This document shows, in pieces, positions 49,094 through 62,319 of a stretch of 64,000 nucleotides of DNA. Origin of the DNA: Oceanicaulis sp. MMSF_3324. GTDB lineage: Bacteria; Pseudomonadota; Alphaproteobacteria; Caulobacterales; Maricaulaceae. Position numbers and translations under genes: made by a program. Under the pieces are notes generated by a model. That model had not been told where the DNA came from. It ran no database searches and worked only from the letters and a program-made list of their open reading frames with translations. Position 1 is the stretch's first letter, and each line of letters starts with the position of its first letter. The stretch spans positions 1-64,000 of the forward strand of contig NZ_JASHIU010000009.1 of NCBI RefSeq assembly GCF_030733545.1. The letters run 5' to 3'.

Positions 49094-49495
49094 ATGCCGC
49101 TTAAGCTTTCTTTGAAGCCGGGTGAGAAGTTCGTTCTGAACGGAGCCGTTGTGGAAAACGGGGATCGCCGGGCGACCCTGGTTTTGCAGAACAAGGCCAG
49201 CGTTCTGCGGGAAAAGGACATCATGCAGGAGCATGAAGTCGATACGCCCGCCAAGCGCATCTATTTCCCGGTCATGATGATGTACCTCTCATCAACCAGT
49301 CAGGACGGATTATATGACGAATTCGTTCTGCGTATGACAGAGTTCATGAACGCTGTGGGCTCTTCGGACGTCATGGCCGAGTGCGTATCGGTCAGCCGGG
49401 AAGTCATGGCGGGTGAGTTCTACAAGGCATTGCTGCGTTGCCGGAAGTTGATCCAATACGAAGCCAAGCTTCTTGCTGGACCGGACGAGGCGTAA
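49094..49495 (+). CDS. flbT: Flagellin translation regulator FlbT
   Basis: FlbT of 133 aa, which in Caulobacter binds the 5' UTR of flagellin mRNA and restrains its translation until the hook is complete. The sequence (PLKLSLKPGEKFVLNGAVVENGDRRATLVLQNKASVLREKDIM, then RIYFPVMMMYL, YDEFVLRM) is the FlbT family pattern. It is followed by flaF and the first flagellin in the same direction. The leader palindromes before the flagellins are natural candidate target sites. Confidence 0.94.
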   Translation: MPLKLSLKPGEKFVLNGAVVENGDRRATLVLQNKASVLREKDIMQEHEVDTPAKRIYFPVMMMYLSSTSQDGLYDEFVLRMTEFMNAVGSSDVMAECVSVSREVMAGEFYKALLRCRKLIQYEAKLLAGPDEA

Positions 49496-49510: not shown

Positions 49511-49861
49511 ATGTCGTATCAGGCCTATAAAACTGCGTCGTCACGCACCGAAGATCCCCGTCAGACCGAGTATCGATTGCTCGGCGAGGTGACGCGCGGT
49601 CTTATGGAAGTGCGCGATGCGCCGAAGAGCGAAATCCGTCAGCGTGCGGCGGCGCTGGACCGCAACCGCCGTGTCTGGTCCGCCTTTGCGGCCGATTGCG
49701 CCAGCGAGCACAACAATCTGCCCGAAGCGCTGCGGGCGGGGATCATCTCTTTGTCGATTTTCGTCTCCAAGGAGACGAGCGCGGCCATGCGTGGAGAGAG
49801 TGATCTCGAGGCGCTGATCGATATCAACCGTACGATCATGCAGGGCCTCTCACCCTCCTGA
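49511..49861 (+). CDS. flaF: Flagellar protein FlaF
   Basis: FlaF of 116 aa, a small protein that in Caulobacter is needed for flagellin synthesis/secretion and opposes FlbT. It begins AYKTASSRTEDPRQTEYRLLGEVTRGLMEV, then RRVWSAFAADCASEHNNLPEALRAGIISLSIFV, all family-typical. It starts 15 nt after flbT with GAGGCGAA upstream and precedes the first flagellin by 227 nt. Confidence 0.94.
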   Translation: MSYQAYKTASSRTEDPRQTEYRLLGEVTRGLMEVRDAPKSEIRQRAAALDRNRRVWSAFAADCASEHNNLPEALRAGIISLSIFVSKETSAAMRGESDLEALIDINRTIMQGLSPS

Positions 49862-49891
49862 CGCAGCGGGTTTGTCGGCAAAACCGCCCTG

Positions 49892-49908
49892 CCGGTCGAA
49901 ATTGCCGG
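49892..49908. promoter_or_regulatory. ftr-like (FlbD enhancer) candidate upstream of flagellin 1
   Basis: CCGGTCGAAATTGCCGG is palindromic in its outer part and has the right half TGCCGG of the Caulobacter ftr element. A second half-site CGGCAAAA lies at 49876-49883. They are about 93-125 bp upstream of the -24 element at 50001. Confidence 0.5.
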
Positions 49909-50000
49909 GCAGGTCGTGCTGCGCATCGTTGGCGGTGCGCTGGGAATTTTTCAAAACATTGAAACATATAGTGTAATTCTTGCTGCGTATGCGTGATGTG

Positions 50001-50016
50001 CGGCACGGGGATTGCT
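50001..50016 (+). promoter_or_regulatory. Sigma-54 promoter of flagellin 1
   Basis: CGGCACGGGGATTGCT matches the -24/-12 consensus TGGCACG-N4-TTGC in all but the first base, with 10 nt between GG and GC. The predicted start is near 50027, about 60 nt before the flagellin ATG. Confidence 0.82.
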
Positions 50017-50020
50017 GTGT

Positions 50021-50051
50021 CTTGGCCGGGACAAAATGTCCGCCGGCCAAG
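50021..50051. promoter_or_regulatory. Nested palindrome at the flagellin 1 transcription start
   Basis: CTTGGCCGG pairs with CCGGCCAAG, and inside lies GACA-AAA-TGTC. It straddles the predicted start, so it is more likely a protein-binding site (FlbD-type) than an RNA hairpin. A second smaller stem, CCGTTC / GAACGG (50058-50076), lies next to the ribosome-binding site AACGGAGGAA. Confidence 0.55.
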
Positions 50052-50088
50052 AACAGGCCGTTCGCTTCCAGAACGGAGGAACCCCACA

Positions 50089-50916
50089 ATGAACGTTTCT
50101 GTGAACACCAACTCAGGAGCCATGATCGCGCTCCAGAATCTGAACAAGACCAACATGGAACTGCAAACCACACAGAACCGGATCAACACCGGTCTGGAAG
50201 TGTCTAGCGCAAAGGACAATGGCGGCGTGTACGCCATCGCCCAGCGCATGCGCTCCCAGGTTTCAGGCTATGGGGTTGTCGGACAGATCCTGGACCGGGG
50301 CGAGGCGACGCTCGACGTTGCACTTGCCGCCGGTGAAGCGATCTCGGATCTGATGGTCGAAATGAATGAGAAGGCCTTGGCGGCGTCTGACGCATCATTG
50401 GATACGGCTAGCCGGAGCGCTCTGAATGAAGATTTCAAAGCGCTGCGCGACCAGATCTCAACGATCGTCAACAATGCCGAGTTCAATGGCGTGAACCTCA
50501 TCGATGGTTCAACCAACGCCTTTGTTGCGCTGGCCAACCAGGACGGCTCGAACACGATTACCGTGAGTTCCGAGAACATGTCGCTCTCGGGCTCCATCGT
50601 GTCCCTGACGTCCACGGCGTCGTTCGCGACCGCCACTCAGGCCAGCAATATTGCTTCTCAGATCAGCACTTCGCTGGATGCGGTGAACTCGTCGCTTGCG
50701 CGACTGGGCACCAAATCCAAAGCGTTGGAGATCCACTCCTCGTTTGTCACAAAACTTTCCGACGCTCTGGAAGTCGGTATCGGCAATCTGGTCGATGCGG
50801 ATCTGGCCAAGGAGTCTGCCGAGTTGCAGGCCCTGCAGGTCAAGCAGCAGCTGGGCACGCAGGCGCTTTCGATCGCCAACCAGCAGCCGCAATCGATCCT
50901 GTCGTATTTCGGCTAG
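50089..50916 (+). CDS. Flagellin 1
   Basis: Filament subunit of 275 aa. ATG 50089 (MNVSVNTNSGAM) is used, with AACGGAGGA upstream. The N-terminal D0/D1 helices are MIALQNLNKTNMELQTTQNRINTGLEVSSAKDNGGVYAIAQRMRSQVSGY. The C-terminal D0 has LVDADLAKESAELQALQVKQQLGTQALSIANQQPQSIL. No large D2/D3 insert is present, giving the short alphaproteobacterial type. It is about 60-65% alike its neighbours by eye and differs from them in LEVSSAKDNGGVYAIA and the QQPQS end. A strong terminator follows. Confidence 0.96.
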   Translation: MNVSVNTNSGAMIALQNLNKTNMELQTTQNRINTGLEVSSAKDNGGVYAIAQRMRSQVSGYGVVGQILDRGEATLDVALAAGEAISDLMVEMNEKALAASDASLDTASRSALNEDFKALRDQISTIVNNAEFNGVNLIDGSTNAFVALANQDGSNTITVSSENMSLSGSIVSLTSTASFATATQASNIASQISTSLDAVNSSLARLGTKSKALEIHSSFVTKLSDALEVGIGNLVDADLAKESAELQALQVKQQLGTQALSIANQQPQSILSYFG

Positions 50917-50930
50917 GGCGTGCGGTTCGG

Positions 50931-50970
50931 GCCGGGATTGCAATTGCAATCCCGGCTTTCCTTTTTCTTT
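50931..50970 (+). terminator. Terminator after flagellin 1
   Basis: A perfect 26-bp palindrome beginning GCCGGGATTGCA (50931-50956) is followed by TTTCCTTTTTCTTT. It makes the flagellin 1 mRNA monocistronic or ends the flbT-flaF transcript. Confidence 0.88.
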
Positions 50971-51015
50971 CAAGCTTTCATTAACCAAATCAACCAGCTG
51001 GCCGTGCTGCCTGCT

Positions 51016-51072
51016 CGGCAAAAAGTGCCGCGCCCGGCAATTCCTGCCGGGTCTAGGCGGCAAGAATTGCCC
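51016..51072. promoter_or_regulatory. Three tandem ftr-like palindromes (FlbD enhancer candidates)
   Basis: CGGCA-N5-TGCCG occurs at 51016-51030 and 51035-51049 (extended CCCGGCA ... TGCCGGG at 51033-51051). A near copy, CGGCA-N5-TGCCC, lies at 51058-51072. They start 90-146 bp upstream of the -24 element of flagellin 2, the expected enhancer range for FlbD. The Caulobacter ftr consensus is of this CGGCA...TGCCG kind. Confidence 0.75.
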
Positions 51073-51161
51073 GCTCCTCGTGACAAGGTAAACGAAACCG
51101 CATTCGGGCTGCGACGAACAATCAATGGCTTAGTGGTGGTTTCTTAGGCAAAGGGTGAATC

Positions 51162-51177
51162 TGGCCCCGGCCTTGCT
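51162..51177 (+). promoter_or_regulatory. Sigma-54 promoter of flagellin 2
   Basis: TGGCCCCGGCCTTGCT keeps TGG, the C at position 4, the TTGC and the 10-nt spacing. It gives a start near 51188, about 68 nt before the ATG. Confidence 0.78.
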
Positions 51178-51203
51178 CCTAGATGTGCGGACCAGAAGGT
51201 CTG

Positions 51204-51240
51204 ACGCGCAAAATGCACGTCACATCAAACGTAGAAACGT
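51204..51240 (+). promoter_or_regulatory. Flagellin 2 leader stems
   Basis: ACGCGCA-AAA-TGCACGT (one mismatch) at 51204-51220 and ACGT-AGAA-ACGT at 51229-51240. Matching elements with different bases occur before flagellins 3 and 4. Followed by ACAGGAGCC, the ribosome-binding site. Confidence 0.6.
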
Positions 51241-51255
51241 GACAGGAGCCAAGAA

Positions 51256-52080
51256 ATGGCGACGATCAATACCAATCCGGGCGCAATGATCGCCCTGCAA
51301 AACCTGAATCAGACCAACAAGGATCTGCAGCAGGTTCAACAACGCATCAACACCGGTCTGGCGATCAGCTCGGCCAAGGATAATGGTGGCGTGTTCGCCA
51401 TCGCTCAATCCATGCGCGCTGACGTGGCTGGCTATAATGCCGTGTCCCAGTCGCTTGACCTGGCCCAATCCACTGTGGACGTCGCCCTGGCGGCGGGTGA
51501 AGCCATCTCCGACTTGATGGTCGAGATGAAGGAAAAAGCGCTCGCATCCACCGATTCCTCGCTGGATACCGCGTCCCGCAATGCGTTGAACGAAGATTTT
51601 GTCGCCCTGCGCGACCAGATTTCGACCATCGTGGAGAATGCCGAGTTCAACGGCACCAATCTCATCTCCAACGGCGCGTCCGATATCACGGCGCTCGCCA
51701 ATGCAGATGGCTCGAACACCATCACCATCGGTGCTGAAGACCTGAGCCTGACGGGCGGTACGCTGTCCATCGGCGCCGGCAGCACGATCTCGACGGTGGC
51801 CGCCGCCAGCACGGCTGTGGCTGCGATCGAAGCGGGTCTGGACAACCTGAACTCCGCGCTGGCCCGTCTGGGCACCGGCTCGAAGTCCCTGGAAATCCAC
51901 TCCACCTTCGTCACCAAGCTGTCTGATGCCCTGGAGAAAGGCATCGGCAACCTGGTCGACGCGGATCTGGCCAAAGAGTCGGCTCGTCTCCAGTCGCTGC
52001 AGGTCAAGCAGCAGCTGGGTACGCAGGCGCTCTCGATCGCGAACTCCGCACCGAGCTCAATCCTGAGTTACTTCCGGTAA
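51256..52080 (+). CDS. Flagellin 2
   Basis: Filament subunit of 274 aa, start ATINTNPGAMIALQNLNQTNKDLQQVQQRINTGLAISSAKDNGGVF. End LVDADLAKESARLQSLQVKQQLGTQALSIANSAPSSILSYFR. The D0/D1 regions are nearly identical to flagellins 3 and 4, while the central part (about residues 135-200) differs. GGAGCCAAGAA precedes the ATG, and the same leader is used in all three. It is the first cistron of the tandem triple and is driven by the sigma-54 promoter at 51162. Confidence 0.96.
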   Translation: MATINTNPGAMIALQNLNQTNKDLQQVQQRINTGLAISSAKDNGGVFAIAQSMRADVAGYNAVSQSLDLAQSTVDVALAAGEAISDLMVEMKEKALASTDSSLDTASRNALNEDFVALRDQISTIVENAEFNGTNLISNGASDITALANADGSNTITIGAEDLSLTGGTLSIGAGSTISTVAAASTAVAAIEAGLDNLNSALARLGTGSKSLEIHSTFVTKLSDALEKGIGNLVDADLAKESARLQSLQVKQQLGTQALSIANSAPSSILSYFR

Positions 52081-52095
52081 TTCAAGCCCAGTTTC

Positions 52096-52128
52096 GGCGA
52101 TGGCGTCATAGAACATGGCGTCGTCGCC
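52096..52128 (+). promoter_or_regulatory. Intercistronic hairpin between flagellins 2 and 3
   Basis: A 14-bp stem with three G-U pairs (GGCGATGGCGTCAT / ATGGCGTCGTCGCC) closes on AGAAC, 15 nt after the flagellin 2 stop. The tip CAT-AGAA-C-ATG recurs in the next gap (53029-53062). No T-run follows, so it could protect or process the mRNA rather than end it. Confidence 0.6.
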
Positions 52129-52138
52129 GGATCCCTGG

Positions 52139-52171
52139 CGCGCAAAAAGCGCGTCTCAACCGTAGAAACGG
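52139..52171 (+). promoter_or_regulatory. Flagellin 3 leader stems
   Basis: CGCGC-AAAAA-GCGCG (52139-52153) and CCGT-AGAA-ACGG (52160-52171), 20-53 nt before the ATG. The first also resembles a weak -24/-12 element (TGGCGCGCAAAAAGC). Confidence 0.6.
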
Positions 52172-52191
52172 ATCTTTGAAGGAGCCAAGAA

Positions 52192-53016
52192 ATGGCGACG
52201 ATCAATACCAACCCCGGGGCGATGATCGCCCTTCAGAACCTGAATCAGACCAACAAGGATCTGCAGCAGGTTCAGCAGCGCATCAACACCGGCCTGGCGA
52301 TCAGCTCGGCCAAGGACAATGGCGGCGTGTTCGCGATTGCCCAGTCGATGCGTGCGGACGTGGCCGGCTACAAAGCCGTCAACCAATCGCTGGATCTGGC
52401 TCAGTCCACCGTGGACGTGGCCCTGGCGGCGGGTGAAGCCATCTCCGACCTGATGGTCGAGATGAAAGAGAAGGCGCTGGCGTCCACGGACACCTCGCTG
52501 GACACCGCGTCCCGCAATGCCCTGAACGAGGATTTCACCGCGCTGCGTGACCAGATCGGCACCATCGTGGCGAACGCCGAATTCAACGGCACCAACCTGA
52601 TCAATAACGGCGCGACCGATATCACGGCGCTGGCCAACGCTGACGGCTCCAACACCATCACCATTGGTGCGGAAGATCTCAGCCTGACCGGCACCACGAT
52701 CACTCTGACCGCCGGTAGCGTGATCAACACCACGACCACCGCGAACGCCGCGGTGTCCGCCATCGAAACCTCGCTGGACAACCTGAACTCCGCGCTGGCT
52801 CGCCTCGGCACCGGCTCGAAGTCTTTGGAGATCCACGGGACCTTCGTGAACAAGCTGTCGGACGCTCTTGAAAAAGGCATCGGCAACCTGGTCGACGCGG
52901 ATCTGGCCAAAGAGTCGGCTCGTCTCCAGTCGCTGCAGGTCAAGCAGCAGCTGGGCACGCAGGCGCTCTCGATCGCGAACTCCGCGCCGAGCTCGATCCT
53001 GGGTTACTTCCGGTAA
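52192..53016 (+). CDS. Flagellin 3
   Basis: Filament subunit of 274 aa, nearly identical to flagellin 2 in its first 130 and last 70 residues (start MATINTNPGAMIALQNLNQ, end NSAPSSILGYFR). The variable centre has LSLTGTTITLTAGSVINTTTTANAAVSAIETSLDN. No clear sigma-54 promoter of its own is present, so it is probably co-transcribed with flagellin 2 by read-through. The gap after it carries the second hairpin with the same tip. Confidence 0.96.
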   Translation: MATINTNPGAMIALQNLNQTNKDLQQVQQRINTGLAISSAKDNGGVFAIAQSMRADVAGYKAVNQSLDLAQSTVDVALAAGEAISDLMVEMKEKALASTDTSLDTASRNALNEDFTALRDQIGTIVANAEFNGTNLINNGATDITALANADGSNTITIGAEDLSLTGTTITLTAGSVINTTTTANAAVSAIETSLDNLNSALARLGTGSKSLEIHGTFVNKLSDALEKGIGNLVDADLAKESARLQSLQVKQQLGTQALSIANSAPSSILGYFR

Positions 53017-53028
53017 TCCCTAAGACTT

Positions 53029-53062
53029 CGAAGGCGGGCTCATAGAAAATGGCTCGCCTTCG
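53029..53062 (+). promoter_or_regulatory. Intercistronic hairpin between flagellins 3 and 4
   Basis: A stem of at least 11 bp, CGAAGGCG ... CGCCTTCG, with a small bulge, closes on CAT-AGAAA-ATG. The tip matches the hairpin at 52096-52128 although the stems differ. Confidence 0.6.
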
Positions 53063-53069
53063 GGAGTGT

Positions 53070-53102
53070 CGCACAAAAAGTGCGTCGTAACCGTAGAAAC
53101 GG
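53070..53102 (+). promoter_or_regulatory. Flagellin 4 leader stems
   Basis: CGCAC-AAAAA-GTGCG (53070-53084) and CCGT-AGAA-ACGG (53091-53102). Compared with flagellin 3 the first stem has changed one G-C pair to A-T on both sides at once. Confidence 0.6.
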
Positions 53103-53123
53103 ATATTTTGAAGGAGCCAAGAA

Positions 53124-53951
53124 ATGGCGACGATCAATACGAACCCGGGCGCAATGGTCGCCCTTCAGAACCTGAACCAGACCAACAAGGATCTGCAGCA
53201 GGTTCAACAACGCATCAACACCGGCTTGGCGATCAGCTCGGCCAAGGACAATGGCGGCGTGTTCGCAATTGCCCAGTCGATGCGTGCGGACGTGGCGGGC
53301 TACAAGGCGGTGGGTCAGTCTCTTGACCTGGCGCAGTCCACCGTGGACGTGGCCCTGGCGGCCGGCGAGGCGATCTCTGATCTGCTGGTGGAAATGAAGG
53401 AAAAGGCGCTGGCTGGCTCCGATTCCTCTCTCGATACCGCATCGCGCAATGCTCTGAACGAAGACTTCAAGGCGCTGCGTGACCAGATCGGGACCATCGT
53501 GGCCAACGCCGAATTCAATGGCACCAACCTCATCAACGGCACGCAAACCGGCGGCATTTCGGCTCTGGCCAATGCTGACGGCTCCAACACCCTCAATGTG
53601 GGTCAGGAAGTGATGTCGCTGGGCGGCACCAACGTGACTGTGGCGGCGACCGCGTCGTTCACCACGGCGGCGGCGGCGTCCACCCTGGTGGCCACCATTG
53701 AAACCTCGCTGGACAACCTCAACACGGCTCTGGCCAAGTTGGGCACCGGCTCGAAGTCTCTGGAAGTCCACAAGTCCTTCGTGGGCAAACTGTCTGACTC
53801 TCTGGAAAAAGGCATCGGCAACCTGGTCGATGCGGATCTGGCGAAAGAGTCCGCTCGTCTTCAGTCGCTGCAGGTCAAGCAGCAGCTGGGTACGCAGGCG
53901 CTCTCGATCGCGAACTCCGCACCGAGCAACATCCTGGGTTACTTCCGGTAA
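53124..53951 (+). CDS. Flagellin 4
   Basis: Filament subunit of 275 aa, again with the shared start (MATINTNPGAMVALQNLNQ, Ile to Val at residue 12) and end (NSAPSNILGYFR). The central part differs (NGTQTGGISALANADGSNTLNVGQEVMSLGGTNVTVAAT). It closes the tandem triple and is followed by a GC-rich hairpin. Confidence 0.96.
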   Translation: MATINTNPGAMVALQNLNQTNKDLQQVQQRINTGLAISSAKDNGGVFAIAQSMRADVAGYKAVGQSLDLAQSTVDVALAAGEAISDLLVEMKEKALAGSDSSLDTASRNALNEDFKALRDQIGTIVANAEFNGTNLINGTQTGGISALANADGSNTLNVGQEVMSLGGTNVTVAATASFTTAAAASTLVATIETSLDNLNTALAKLGTGSKSLEVHKSFVGKLSDSLEKGIGNLVDADLAKESARLQSLQVKQQLGTQALSIANSAPSNILGYFR

Positions 53952-53963
53952 TCCATAGTGAAA

Positions 53964-54000
53964 TCGGCCGGGGCGTTACGTGGGGTTCCTCCCCGGCCGA
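53964..54000 (+). terminator. Terminator-like hairpin after flagellin 4
   Basis: TCGGCCGGGG at 53964-53973 pairs with CCCCGGCCGA at 53991-54000 around a 17-nt loop, followed by CTTTCCC. The T-run is weak, so termination may be partial before the flaG gene. Confidence 0.55.
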
Positions 54001-54078
54001 CTTTCCCAGGTGACATGTCAGAGAGCATAGGGAGAAAGTAGGAGGCGCCGACGCCGCCAAAGCGTGGACGAAGCAAAC

Positions 54079-54462
54079 ATGAATATCGGCAATATAGTAC
54101 CGGTTACAAACGCCCAGGGCGTCGCCCCTGAAGCCGACCCGTCTGAAAAAGCCGCCGCTTCCCTGTCGAAGCGTGGCCAGGTGGGAGGCGAGGAAACAGA
54201 CAAGGCGGTCGCCGAAAAAGGCTCGGCTGTCGTTCAGAAGTCTGCGGACCTTGAGCGGATTGAATCACTGCGCGATCGCGTGAACGCCAGTTTGCGGACC
54301 CGTTTGCAAATCGATCGGGAAGAGGAGAGCGGCAAGTTCATCTACCGCCTGTTCGACCCGGAGACCGGCGAGGTCATGCGGCGCTGGCCGCCCGAGAAGT
54401 ATCTCGACCTGATCGCTTTCCTGAAGGATCAGCAGGGCGGCGTGGTCGATGAGCGGGTCTGA
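54079..54462 (+). CDS. flaG: FlaG-family flagellar protein
   Basis: Small flagellar protein of 127 aa. The central part RLQIDREEESGKFIYRLFDPETGEVMRRWPPEKYLDLIAFL is the FlaG domain pattern (VxDxxTGEVxRxxP). The first 55 residues are low-complexity. ATG 54079 (MNIGNIVPV) is used, and GTG 54064 in frame is an alternative. Ribosome-binding is weak. It lies between flagellins 4 and 5 and probably affects filament length, as FlaG does in other species. Confidence 0.85.
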   Translation: MNIGNIVPVTNAQGVAPEADPSEKAAASLSKRGQVGGEETDKAVAEKGSAVVQKSADLERIESLRDRVNASLRTRLQIDREEESGKFIYRLFDPETGEVMRRWPPEKYLDLIAFLKDQQGGVVDERV

Positions 54463-54489
54463 CCTGTCGGCAGATTTGATCTGGCGCAT

Positions 54490-54500
54490 CGGCAAAAATT
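54490..54500. promoter_or_regulatory. ftr-like half-site upstream of flagellin 5
   Basis: CGGCAAAAATT matches the left half and spacer of the ftr-like element, about 92 bp upstream of the -24 element at 54592. No clear right half is seen, so confidence is low. Confidence 0.35.
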
Positions 54501-54591
54501 AACCATGCGTCCCGCTGACGGCCCCATGCCGTTCGGCGTCAAAATGATTCAATATACTGATTTACAACAAGATTGAGCGTTCTGGCCAAAT

Positions 54592-54607
54592 TGGCCCATG
54601 GATTGCT
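54592..54607 (+). promoter_or_regulatory. Sigma-54 promoter of flagellin 5
   Basis: TGGCCCATGGATTGCT has the TGG, TTGC and 10-nt spacing of sigma-54 promoters. It places the start near 54618, about 48 nt before the ATG. Confidence 0.78.
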
Positions 54608-54665
54608 CCTGTATGCGATGAGCGGCCGTCGAATGCGGCGCAGAATTGCAATCGGGAGAAGACCA

Positions 54666-55499
54666 ATGGCGCTCAGCGTCCACACGAACACCTCGGCGAT
54701 GATCGCCCTGCAAAACCTCAACAAGACCAATGAGGACATTCAGGGCGTCCAGAACAGAATCAATACCGGCCTGAAGGTCGCCGGCGCAAAAGACAATTCC
54801 TCGGTCTACGCGGTGGCCCAGGGAATGCGCTCCGACATCGGCGCCTACGGCTCGGTCAGCTCCTCTCTTGATCGCGCCGTCTCGATCGGCGACGTGGCCA
54901 TGGCGGCCGGCGAGTCCATTTCGGACCTGCTGATCCAGATGCGCGAGAAGGCGACTGCTGCGCTCGACCCGTCCATCGATACCTTCTCCCGCCAGGCCTA
55001 TGACAGTGATTTCAAACAATTGCTGGATCAGGTCCGGGTGGTCCTGAATAATGCCGAATTTGACGGCGCCAATCTGCTGGATGGCTCCCAGACCAATGGC
55101 ATCGCCTTCCTGGCGGATGCGGACGCGACGCGCTCGGTCACGCTGGGCGGTCAGAACATGTCCATCTCCGGCTCCATCGTCACGCTGGCCAACAATGCCA
55201 GCCTGGGCACAGTGACGCTGTCCGCCAACGTGCTGACCGCGATCCAGACCAGCCTCGACAATGTGAACCAGGCGCTCGCCAATCTGGGCTCTGACCTGAA
55301 GAAGATCGAGGCCCACCGCACCTTTGTCGGCAAGCTGACCGACAGCCTGACCAAAGGGGTGGGCAATCTGGTCGATGCCGACCTCGCCAAGGAATCCGCA
55401 CGCTTGCAGGCCCTGCAGGTCAAGCAACAGCTCGGCGTCCAGGCGCTTTCGATCGCCAACTCCGAGCCGCAGATCATCCTCAATCTCTTCGGCGGTTAA
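54666..55499 (+). CDS. Flagellin 5
   Basis: Filament subunit of 277 aa, start ATG 54666 (MALSVHTNTSAMIALQNLNKTNEDIQGVQNRINTGLKVAGAKDNSSVYAVAQGMRSDIGAY) with GGGAGAAG upstream. End LVDADLAKESARLQALQVKQQLGVQALSIANSEPQIILNLFGG. It is the most divergent member (LKVAGAKDNSSVY, NLFGG) and has its own sigma-54 promoter. An upstream in-frame ATG at 54573 is rejected, as it overlaps the promoter. Confidence 0.95.
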   Translation: MALSVHTNTSAMIALQNLNKTNEDIQGVQNRINTGLKVAGAKDNSSVYAVAQGMRSDIGAYGSVSSSLDRAVSIGDVAMAAGESISDLLIQMREKATAALDPSIDTFSRQAYDSDFKQLLDQVRVVLNNAEFDGANLLDGSQTNGIAFLADADATRSVTLGGQNMSISGSIVTLANNASLGTVTLSANVLTAIQTSLDNVNQALANLGSDLKKIEAHRTFVGKLTDSLTKGVGNLVDADLAKESARLQALQVKQQLGVQALSIANSEPQIILNLFGG

Positions 55500-55527
55500 A
55501 GCCGGTCCTGACTTCACCACAACGGCG

Positions 55528-55570
55528 AACCGTCCGACTTCTCCCGATGTCGGGCGGTTTGTTGTTTTCA
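55528..55570 (+). terminator. Terminator after flagellin 5
   Basis: AACCGTCCGAC pairs with GTCGGGCGGTT (one G-U pair) around a 10-nt loop and is followed by TGTTGTTTT. Confidence 0.65.
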
Positions 55571-55620
55571 GGGAGGCGTGGACTCAGCACACTCTGGGCT
55601 GAGCCTCAGGGAGCAGATGC

Positions 55621-59438: not shown

Positions 59439-59486
59439 AAGCTTGCCGTCCTGTTTACGCTAAATCCTAACGATTTGTTTGCTCGC

Positions 59487-59502
59487 CGGGCCGTATTCTG
59501 CG
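59487..59502 (+). promoter_or_regulatory. Weak sigma-54-like element before the FlaEY-like gene
   Basis: CGGGCCGTATTCTGCG has GG and GC spaced by 10 nt but differs from the consensus at several positions. It lies 48 nt before ATG 59551. Confidence 0.35.
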
Positions 59503-59550
59503 TTGCGATGCAATAGGTGCGTCGTTTGTTTGGGTTTCGGGCTTACGGCT

Positions 59551-62319
59551 ATGGTCATTTCGTCCAACCTTCTTGGCGCCTGGTATGGCGCGCAAAGTGC
59601 GGTGGCGCTGTCGCGGACGACAGCGGTCAGCACCTCTGCGAGCAACGCCCAAAGCGCCAGCCAGTCCCGCAACTCCGATGTCCTGCCGCCCTGGGATGCC
59701 CGCGGCGAGATCGTCGCGCTGGACGTGCTCAAGCGCAGCGCCCTCGGCAATGGGGTGTTTTTCGACAAGAAGCTGGGTGATTTCGCCGATCTCGATGTGG
59801 GCGATGACGAGAAGCAACTCTTCGCCATGTATCAGGGCCTGCGCCGCTTGCAGGCTTTGGGCGCGGAAGCGGCTGAAAAATCCACTCTCGATACCCGCCG
59901 CGATTTTCTGGACCGTCGCTTCCAGGAAGGCCTGGATCAGCTGAGCAGCTTCTTTGCGGATCTCGATCTTGAGGGCGTCAGCGTTCTCAAGGGCGAGGAA
60001 TTATCGAAGGCGGAAAGCTCGCTCGCCATTTCACGCGGGACCTCTGAATACACGACGCCGATCATTCACTCAGGCGCGTTTGACGCCGAGGTGGCGAATT
60101 TCCAGGGTGATATCTCGTTCACGATCAACGTCAAGAAGTCCGGGGTGAATACGCCGATCGCCATTGATCTGGCGAATATGGGCGCAACCCCGCGCACACT
60201 CGACAACGTCGCCGACCACATCAACACCGAGCTTGAGGCGGCGGGCATGCTCAGCCGCGTCGAACGCGTGAAGATCGGCGAGAAGGACGAGAACGGGATC
60301 ATCCCGGGCGATAATTTCGGCTTCAAGATCAAGGGTATCCTTACCGAGACCGTGAGCTTTGAGCCGTCGGCGGGCAATCCGGCTGTTTATATGGCGGGCG
60401 TGTCCGGCGATCGGGAAGGCGCGGGCGGCCAGCTGACCAAATATGTCGATATCGCTGGCGGCGGCACAGCCGCGTTCATGCGCCGGATCGAGGCGGATGG
60501 CAGCGTCACCGAATCCACCGTCGCTGTGCCAGGCGGCGAAGAGGGGGAAACCGAAACGCGCACCTCCACCGACTCCAATCCGCTGCGCATCCTGGATTCG
60601 GTCCAGGGCCCGGACGGGGGGCTGTACATGGTCGGTTATGCCGAGAATGGCGTGGCCGGTCAGTCCATCAAGGGCGAGCAGGATCTGATCCTGATGCGCT
60701 ATGACACCACTGGCAAACAGGTCTGGGCGCGTACGCTCGGGGCAGCCGGCAGTGCGGAAGGCGCCTCGATCGCCCTGGATGCGAACGGCAATGTCGTGGT
60801 CGCCGGCTCGGTCGAAGGCGCTCTGGGCGATACGACCGAACTGGGCGGCTCGGACTCCCTCGTTTCGAAATTCTCCGCAGACGGCGTCGAGCAATGGACC
60901 AAGCGCTTCGGCGGCAACAAGGATGACAGCGCGACGGCGGTCAGCGTCGGCGCAGACGGCACGATCTATGTAGCCGGGCAGACCAATGCGCCTCTGGGCG
61001 GGGTCACCAATGCAGGCGGCACGGATGGCTATGTGCGCGCCATCGATGGCGACGGCAATGTGGTCTACACCCGCGCCGCGGGCGCCAGCGCCGGCACCGA
61101 CAGGGCCCAGTCCATCGCCCAGGCATCGGATGGCGGCCTGATCATCGCCAGCGAGGTGGAGGGTCGCGCTGTGCTGACAAAATACGCCGCCGGTGATGAC
61201 GGTACGGGCGCTGCGGTCTGGTCCATGGATCTGGGCGATCTTGAAGGCGGTCGGATCGGCGAAGTCACCGTGGGCGATGACGGGGCCATCTATCTGGCCG
61301 GGTCGGCGGGCGGCGCCTTTGCGCCATCCGCTCCGCTCACCGCCAATTCGGGCGGGCGTGACGCCTTCCTGATGAAGATCACCGACGGGCCCACGGCGAA
61401 TGTGGATTTCACCACCTTCCTGGGCTCGGCCGAAGACAATTCCGCCAGCTCCGTGACGGTCAATAACGGCGTGGCCTATATCTCGGGCAAGACCTCAGGC
61501 GCGTTGCCGGGCCAGACCCAGACCGGTGACCGCAATGCCTTCGTGGCCGGCTTTGACACCACGAGCGGGGCCGTCACCTTCACCCAGCAGCTGTCTGGCC
61601 GGGGCGGTCTGGCCGAGGCGAATGCGGTGGTGGTCGATCCCACAGGGGACAATTCGCTGGACAAGCTGGGCTTCCCGACCGGTGAAGTGCGTTACGCCGA
61701 CAGCCGTGTGATCACAGCGCGCTCGAGTGTGCGCGAAGGCGACCATTTTTATATCTCTGTCGATGGCGGCCGTAAGAAGAAAATCTCCATCGACGCCGAC
61801 GAGACCATGCGGTCGCTGACCTTCAAGCTGAACGCTGTCCTGGTGCTGGATGGCACGTCTGATGTGCGCCGCTCGTCCAATGGCGACATGCTGCGCATCA
61901 AGCCGCGCGAAGGCGTGAAGGTTGAACTCTTTGCGGGCGATGACGGTCGGGACGCGCTGTCCGGGCTTGGCTTGCCCGAAGGGTCGATCATCGGCAAGGC
62001 GTCGCTGCTGGACAAGGAAGAGAGCACGTCCGATGCGCCGGAGATCTTCGCCATGGAGCTGCCCGCTTCCATGTCCATTTCTTCCAAGGAGGGCGCAGCC
62101 AAGGCGCTGGAAGCGCTGAGCAAGGCCCAGTCCGTCATTCAGCGCGCCTATCGCGACCTGACGACGGACCCGGCGCTGAAGGCGCTGCTGGAGGGCCCGC
62201 AAGCGGGCAAGCGCGGCGGGACCGCGCCGGCCTATCTCACCGCGCAGGTGGCGAATTACCAGGCGGGTCTGGATCGTCTTCTGGGCGGCAGCGGCAGCAC
62301 CACGCTGGGCCTGTTCTAG
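59551..62319 (+). CDS. flaEY: FlaEY-like flagellar protein with 57-residue beta-propeller-type repeats
   Basis: A 922-aa protein resembling the Caulobacter regulatory protein FlaEY. ATG 59551 begins MVISSNLLGAWYGAQSAVALS. Residues about 350-650 contain six repeats of the type (G/A)xIYVAGxxxG, centred near 356, 413, 470, 528, 578 and 640. The first three are exactly 57 aa apart (171 nt), as in SBBP-like propellers. The flanks are flagellin/hook-like alpha-helical (SIQRAYRDLTTDPALKALLEG at the C-terminus). It stands alone before a terminator, facing flbY-flgJ-flgI. The family name is inferred. Confidence 0.6.
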   Translation: MVISSNLLGAWYGAQSAVALSRTTAVSTSASNAQSASQSRNSDVLPPWDARGEIVALDVLKRSALGNGVFFDKKLGDFADLDVGDDEKQLFAMYQGLRRLQALGAEAAEKSTLDTRRDFLDRRFQEGLDQLSSFFADLDLEGVSVLKGEELSKAESSLAISRGTSEYTTPIIHSGAFDAEVANFQGDISFTINVKKSGVNTPIAIDLANMGATPRTLDNVADHINTELEAAGMLSRVERVKIGEKDENGIIPGDNFGFKIKGILTETVSFEPSAGNPAVYMAGVSGDREGAGGQLTKYVDIAGGGTAAFMRRIEADGSVTESTVAVPGGEEGETETRTSTDSNPLRILDSVQGPDGGLYMVGYAENGVAGQSIKGEQDLILMRYDTTGKQVWARTLGAAGSAEGASIALDANGNVVVAGSVEGALGDTTELGGSDSLVSKFSADGVEQWTKRFGGNKDDSATAVSVGADGTIYVAGQTNAPLGGVTNAGGTDGYVRAIDGDGNVVYTRAAGASAGTDRAQSIAQASDGGLIIASEVEGRAVLTKYAAGDDGTGAAVWSMDLGDLEGGRIGEVTVGDDGAIYLAGSAGGAFAPSAPLTANSGGRDAFLMKITDGPTANVDFTTFLGSAEDNSASSVTVNNGVAYISGKTSGALPGQTQTGDRNAFVAGFDTTSGAVTFTQQLSGRGGLAEANAVVVDPTGDNSLDKLGFPTGEVRYADSRVITARSSVREGDHFYISVDGGRKKKISIDADETMRSLTFKLNAVLVLDGTSDVRRSSNGDMLRIKPREGVKVELFAGDDGRDALSGLGLPEGSIIGKASLLDKEESTSDAPEIFAMELPASMSISSKEGAAKALEALSKAQSVIQRAYRDLTTDPALKALLEGPQAGKRGGTAPAYLTAQVANYQAGLDRLLGGSGSTTLGLF

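Follow-up and report, generated by a model that had tools for sequence, protein, structure and literature searches.

The gene for flagellin 2 (274 amino acids; 51256..52080, plus strand; assigned by homology to the neighboring flagellins) is preceded by three tandem dyads of the form CGGCA-N5-TGCCG. Judged from the sequence and from its relatives, these dyads are very probably docking sites for the flagellar activator FlbD, and the near-constant spacing of the three sites in related genomes points to DNA-bound assembly of the activator ring. The explanation that we favor, and in which we place considerable confidence, is that the array is an ftr-like FlbD enhancer serving flagellin 2, on which three bound dimers would favor a hexamer that loops to the sigma-54 polymerase and activates the gene.

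A motif scan of the window, by which we mean the whole 64,000-nucleotide stretch analyzed, placed the dyads at 51016, 51035, and 51058, with start-to-start spacings of 19 and 23 bp. The distal dyad (site 3; CGGCAAAAAGTGCCG, 51016..51030) and the middle dyad (site 2; CGGCAATTCCTGCCG, 51035..51049) match the motif exactly, and the promoter-proximal dyad (site 1; CGGCAAGAATTGCCC, 51058..51072) departs from it by one mismatch, a C for G at the last base; no strand was assigned to any of the three. The sigma-54 promoter core that membership in the FlbD-ftr class of enhancers calls for was found by pattern match at 51162..51176 on the plus strand (TGGCCCCGGCCTTGC). Counted from the first base of this core (51162), the dyads stand at -146, -127, and -104, the far end of the array lying 146 bp and its near end 90 bp upstream. 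The original prediction of two perfect copies and one near-perfect copy at these coordinates and spacings, 90 to 146 bp upstream of a sigma-54 promoter, was borne out by the scan.

In dinucleotide shuffles of the window, three sites with at most one mismatch fell within 60 bp in 0 of 1,000 cases and two exact dyads fell within 45 bp in 1 of 1,000. Across the whole genome (2,975,023 bases), the only exact dyads were the two at 51016 and 51035, 19 bp apart, so that exact copies, which a flagellar enhancer motif should not have equally often in nonflagellar regions, are confined to this array. Lone near matches are uninformative, because the window contains 8 dyads with at most one mismatch against a shuffle mean of 8.1 and the genome contains 165, fewer than the 477 found with the reversed pattern. 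Nor is the sigma-54 core informative by itself, as it had 28 matches in the genome versus 22 for the reversed pattern. Dyads scoring at least 8 were found within 400 bp of only 3 of these 28 cores, namely, that of flagellin 2 (scores of 20.2, 20.8, and 18.8) and those with flgK and flgF/flgG as downstream genes (weak scores of 9.5 to 12.4).

The window also holds flbT (49094-49495), flaF (49511-49861), flagellin 1 (50083-50916), flagellin 3 (52192-53016), flagellin 4 (53124-53951), flaG (54064-54462), and flagellin 5 (about 54663-55499). Flagellin 5 has a good sigma-54 core (54592..54606, plus strand) preceded by degenerate dyads at 54490 (-102, three mismatches) and 54468 (-124, four mismatches), whose geometry is weakly suggestive of activator sites. 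Flagellin 1 has a weak sigma-54-like core with one mismatch (50001..50015, plus strand) and a single weak, degenerate dyad at 49893 (-108, two mismatches). The scan of the window detected neither a dyad nor a sigma-54 core upstream of flagellin 3 or flagellin 4, and these genes may be either cotranscribed with flagellin 2 or driven from other promoters. Downstream of the flagellin cluster, an open frame of 946 amino acids (59479-62319) had no Pfam match at an E value of ≤0.001.

The geometry of the array in relatives was read from the sequence following flagellin 1 in 30 genomes, the best scoring of the 70 genomes with a match. Three dyads with at most three mismatches were present in 18 of these 30 host-family loci, and most of the 30 had a sigma-54 core in the equivalent position. 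The common family layout puts the dyads at about -154, -136, and -103 from the first base of the core, with gaps of 18 and 33 or 34 bp. The host genome, like its two nearest relatives (G272 and G339), has sites at -146, -127, and -104, with gaps of 19 and 23 bp, and genome G183 has gaps of 18 and 23 bp; thus, one gap in the host genome is a helical turn shorter than in the family layout. Nine further loci had two sites, 33 to 35 bp apart. The deviating loci were one with gaps of 14 and 31 bp (L100) and one with a single site (L096), and one locus (L087, in genome G173) had no site directly after flagellin 1 because its array sits farther off, with flagellin 2. Three sites are therefore the rule in the host's family and also occur in the Caulobacteraceae, and the array of three that the original prediction singled out is not special to this genome.

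In 27 family promoters, the distance from the proximal dyad to the sigma-54 core averaged 103.6 bp (range, 99 to 106; standard deviation, 1.7), whereas in the same promoters its distance to the end of flagellin 1 had a standard deviation of 20.3 bp. The dyads are thus fixed in distance to the promoter and not to flagellin 1, and they therefore behave as an enhancer array and unlike a terminator or a repeat. This bears on the idea that the dyads belong to the 3′ end of flagellin 1, beyond which they lie, as repeat elements or as RNA hairpins, for which stems of 5 bp would be possible. We consider this extremely improbable, since a distinct hairpin (50931..50956, plus strand) of a likely intrinsic terminator, with a T-rich run after it, lies between flagellin 1 and the array and since, in G173, the array accompanies flagellin 2, at -104 and -138, although it is about 1.6 kb away from flagellin 1. 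An additional site in G173 (one mismatch, found by eye on the sequence) lies about 18 bp upstream of the one at -138.

The two-site loci raise the question of whether all three dyads matter, as FlbD might bind them all the same while the third is only a vestige or a spare of little effect. Consistent with this, the distal site is degenerate (two to four mismatches) in 9 of the 27 family promoters of standard geometry, several Caulobacteraceae loci (L033 to L035, L037, and L038) have only two good sites, and, according to the accessible part of one report, CbrB of Pseudomonas tolerates the loss of some subsites (PMC6296734). However, when 31 offsets were scored in the nine two-site family promoters, the top 15-mer was in every case 17 or 18 bp farther upstream than the middle site. 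The weight matrix used here had many of the scored sites in its training set; the nine sites under test (two to four mismatches) were not among these, although further sites from those promoters were. Because the top 15-mer sits at this offset, the third site in the nine promoters is a remnant rather than absent. With a remnant at the same offset in every such promoter and triads recurrent in several families, we regard a mere pair of functional sites as unlikely and prefer a scaffold of three.

Caulobacteraceae arrays stand at about -140, -119, and -89 (gaps of 21 or 22 and 29 to 31 bp) or at -132, -110, and -89 (gaps of 22 and 21 bp), with the exception of one locus with gaps of 26 and 29 bp and several with only a pair 29 to 30 bp apart. 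In both groups, then, the inner gap takes one of two lengths that differ by about a helical turn (33 or 34 versus 23 bp in the host's family and 29 to 31 versus 21 bp in the Caulobacteraceae). The outer dyads are about five turns (51 to 52 bp) or four turns (42 bp) apart. An 18-bp gap does not correspond to an integral number of turns, which speaks against the favored model, and it would leave the middle dimer rotated with respect to the outer ones.

Surveys of the order and class gave counts that are not independent, because the genomes are related. Among 299 genomes of the order, 34 had two exact dyads in tandem, separated by 0 to 30 bp, compared with 1 for the reversed control, and 27 of the 30 paired loci that were fetched adjoin a flagellin homologue. 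Of the other three, L044 precedes flgK, and L020 and L021 are repeat-like and had no flagellin match. In the latter two (from genomes G286 and G077), dyad-like palindromes occur in repeated copies away from flagellins and are probably unrelated repeat elements. When spacings were counted, 7 of the 47 forward pairs were left out as repeats or low-complexity sequence (four from G286, two from G077, and one from G236:C36), and 39 of the remaining 40 had spacings of 18 to 23 or 29 to 34 bp, with none at 24 to 28 bp; the P value for this distribution takes uniform spacing as its null and related genomes as its sample and should not be read literally. Three dyads with GGCA-N5-TGCC cores were found in 21 of the 299 genomes (reversed control, 0), and a scripted check placed a flagellin start 100 to 400 bp away from 18 of the 21 three-site loci. 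The other three comprised L306, which falls outside the position filter and is the array of G208, L289, which lies at a contig end, and L291, which is a repeat. Triads thus recur in several families.

Across the class, a dyad 79 to 109 bp before a sigma-54 core was present in 54 of 385 genomes (reversed control, 0). The host genome falls outside the 54: its proximal dyad carries a mismatch, and its two exact ones stand at a greater distance from the core. An FlbD match (E ≤ 1e-80) was found in 45 of the 54 genomes with a dyad plus sigma-54 core, as opposed to 149 of the 331 others (Fisher P = 1.1e-7), the remaining 9 of the 54 having no FlbD match at this cutoff. The gene downstream of 30 fetched class loci encoded flagellin, FlgE, FlgF/G, FlgK, or FliK in 21 cases and a DUF1217 protein in 1, and in 8 it was unrecognized, unrelated, or absent. 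In other genomes of the class, a dyad plus sigma-54 core lies upstream of genes for a GGDEF protein (L245) and an EF-hand protein (L246), which may be nonstructural targets or chance matches. The association of the dyad with flagellar promoters of the sigma-54 type and with FlbD-encoding genomes lends support to the predicted identity of the array as a putative FlbD/ftr-type enhancer. Points that speak against it are the 9 genomes lacking an FlbD match, the 8 class loci with no recognized flagellar gene, the missing or degenerate sites of the other four flagellins, and the two family loci of deviating geometry (L096 and L100).

FlbD of the host genome is encoded at C10:34201-35562 (454 amino acids) and has HTH_8 and GAFTGA, with a receiver domain that falls below the Pfam cutoff. 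The protein is about 70% identical to its match in Caulobacteraceae genomes G002, G007, and G012, and the core of its helix-turn-helix, NRTHAANILGISIRTLRNKL, was identical in all eight sequences compared, which fits one dyad serving the whole class. FliX was found just past the window end (PF10768 at C24:64485-64895, E = 3.5e-38). The genome also encodes other sigma-54 activators, with five PF00158 matches, three of them strong (L046, L047, and L048), so another Fis-type activator, such as the L046 protein, which we take to be TacA-like, might bind the dyads instead of FlbD. We infer that FlbD is the binder and rate such a substitute as very unlikely, since the dyads track flagellar genes and the presence of FlbD and since flbD sits between what are presumably fliN-like and flhA-like genes, as named by recognition of their translations.

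In the mechanism that we infer for FlbD, one dimer would bind each dyad through the Fis-type helix-turn-helix, and three dimers at set spacings would favor an FlbD hexamer on the DNA. This single hexamer would touch the sigma-54 polymerase at 51162 by DNA looping, which is plausible, with an IHF-consensus site in between, and licensing of FlbD by FliX would then switch flagellin 2 on. The IHF site (WATCAANNNNTTR, 51120..51132, plus strand) has no mismatch to what we take to be the IHF consensus. As a conserved element it gained no support beyond the host's own clade, as a consensus with at most one mismatch occurred in 8 of 29 host-family loci versus 2.2 expected, with the exact match in the host genome.

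Two accessible accounts of Caulobacter describe FlbD as acting from ftr sites to activate middle and late genes and as requiring FliX rather than phosphorylation (PMC3930126, PMC3096577); a third, in the part available, states to the contrary that an unknown kinase phosphorylates FlbD (PMC6180460). FlbD is also described as repressing fliF through ftr4 in Caulobacter (PMC3930126), and it might likewise act mainly as a repressor here. We think this highly improbable, given that the array lies 90 to 146 bp upstream of a good sigma-54 core, in enhancer territory, and that middle and late genes are stimulated by FlbD according to the same account (PMC3930126). Activation of flagellin 2 by FlbD would be the expected outcome.

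FlbD-ftr enhancers are already known. The array resembles the FlbD/ftr system of Caulobacter crescentus in its sigma-54 flagellin promoter, its upstream dyads, and the presence of flbD and fliX in the genome but differs in having three sites with conserved gaps. The dyad fits the presumed ftr consensus, and its identification as an ftr motif is drawn from that consensus and from comparison. Sigma-54 activators work as hexamers and are usually dimers on DNA, which is established knowledge and is stated in the introductions of two papers (PMC2941729, PMC6296734). By extension from the NorR and CbrB systems, we would regard three dyads for three dimers as the simplest scaffold for one hexamer. 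At norVW of Escherichia coli, NorR has three sites upstream of a sigma-54 promoter, and the accessible part of the report describes these enhancer sites as essential and as scaffolding higher-order oligomers, with ring-shaped, hexamer-like particles (PMC2941729). The present array shares with that scaffold three spaced sites conserved together, but the activator, signal, and site sequence differ, the proposed activator being FlbD, with its receiver-like N terminus, and not NorR; the array would work like the NorR system without being a member of it. CbrB promoters of Pseudomonas putida likewise have three subsites and sigma-54, with IHF between, and the subsites are described in the portion available as lying on one helical face, with little dependence on phosphorylation (PMC6296734). 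Unlike the dyads, the CbrB subsites are described there as nonpalindromic, with centers 20 to 25 bp apart.

The transcript that starts at this promoter would open with a structured 5′ leader RNA (51177..51260, plus strand), predicted from covariation to form four hairpins with AGAA or AAAA loops, the start codon of flagellin 2 lying within the last. Its match to the leader model scored 73.7 bits, the sequence being part of the training set. The alignment comprised 29 of the 30 family sequences, with L087 left out and five leaders shortened by hand to the common length. Over these 29 sequences, 87.5% of cells paired versus 79.0% in shuffles, 39 cells had changed on both sides versus 12.8, and covariation was 0.253 versus 0.127, and 0 of 500 shuffles were as high on these three measures; further pair types, at 22 versus 20.3 in shuffles, were not above expectation. 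Variation is compensated in helices 1 and 2 and almost lacking in helix 4, and helix 3 pairs in only 56%. The model, applied to sequences outside its training set, also found leader elements before flagellin 3 (52117..52196, plus strand; 47.4 bits, E = 1.9e-13) and flagellin 4 (53050..53128, plus strand; 38.3 bits, E = 1.8e-10), each running into the start codon and each with no sigma-54 core or dyad. Within the order, 69 of the 299 genomes gave matches; 42 belong to the host's family (many in the training set), and 27, with weaker scores, lie outside it. Rfam gave no match in 49800-55600 at an E value of ≤1. The leader of flagellin 1 (50016-50089) has another predicted fold, in which a long hairpin precedes a further one immediately ahead of the ribosome-binding site.

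FlbT is described as binding flagellin leaders in Caulobacter in the accessible part of one paper (PMC3930126), and a 2015 review, in the part available, leaves the motif that it recognizes blank and calls its mechanism unresolved (PMC4347634). We propose that the leader hairpins are a candidate FlbT target. For the three-site rule and the leader, the literature searched gave no earlier description, which is weak evidence of absence, as key older papers lay outside its scope. A tentative generalization, possible though open to considerable doubt, is that Caulobacterales flagellin promoters carry a fixed three-dyad scaffold on which degenerate-receiver FlbD would form a hexamer from three dimers, the inner gap being free to shift by about one turn while the distance to the promoter is kept, and that the leader of the same transcript would be the FlbT target, coupling the transcription and translation checkpoints.

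Taken together, these results extend the few ftr sites of Caulobacter to a comparative rule, with a class-wide dyad at sigma-54 flagellar promoters and a triad of fixed geometry at the flagellin promoter. The idea that DNA serves as the template on which an activator with a degenerate receiver is put together would thereby become testable by half-turn or whole-turn shifts of single sites, and the leader adjoining the array offers a concrete candidate for the RNA element that FlbT may read.
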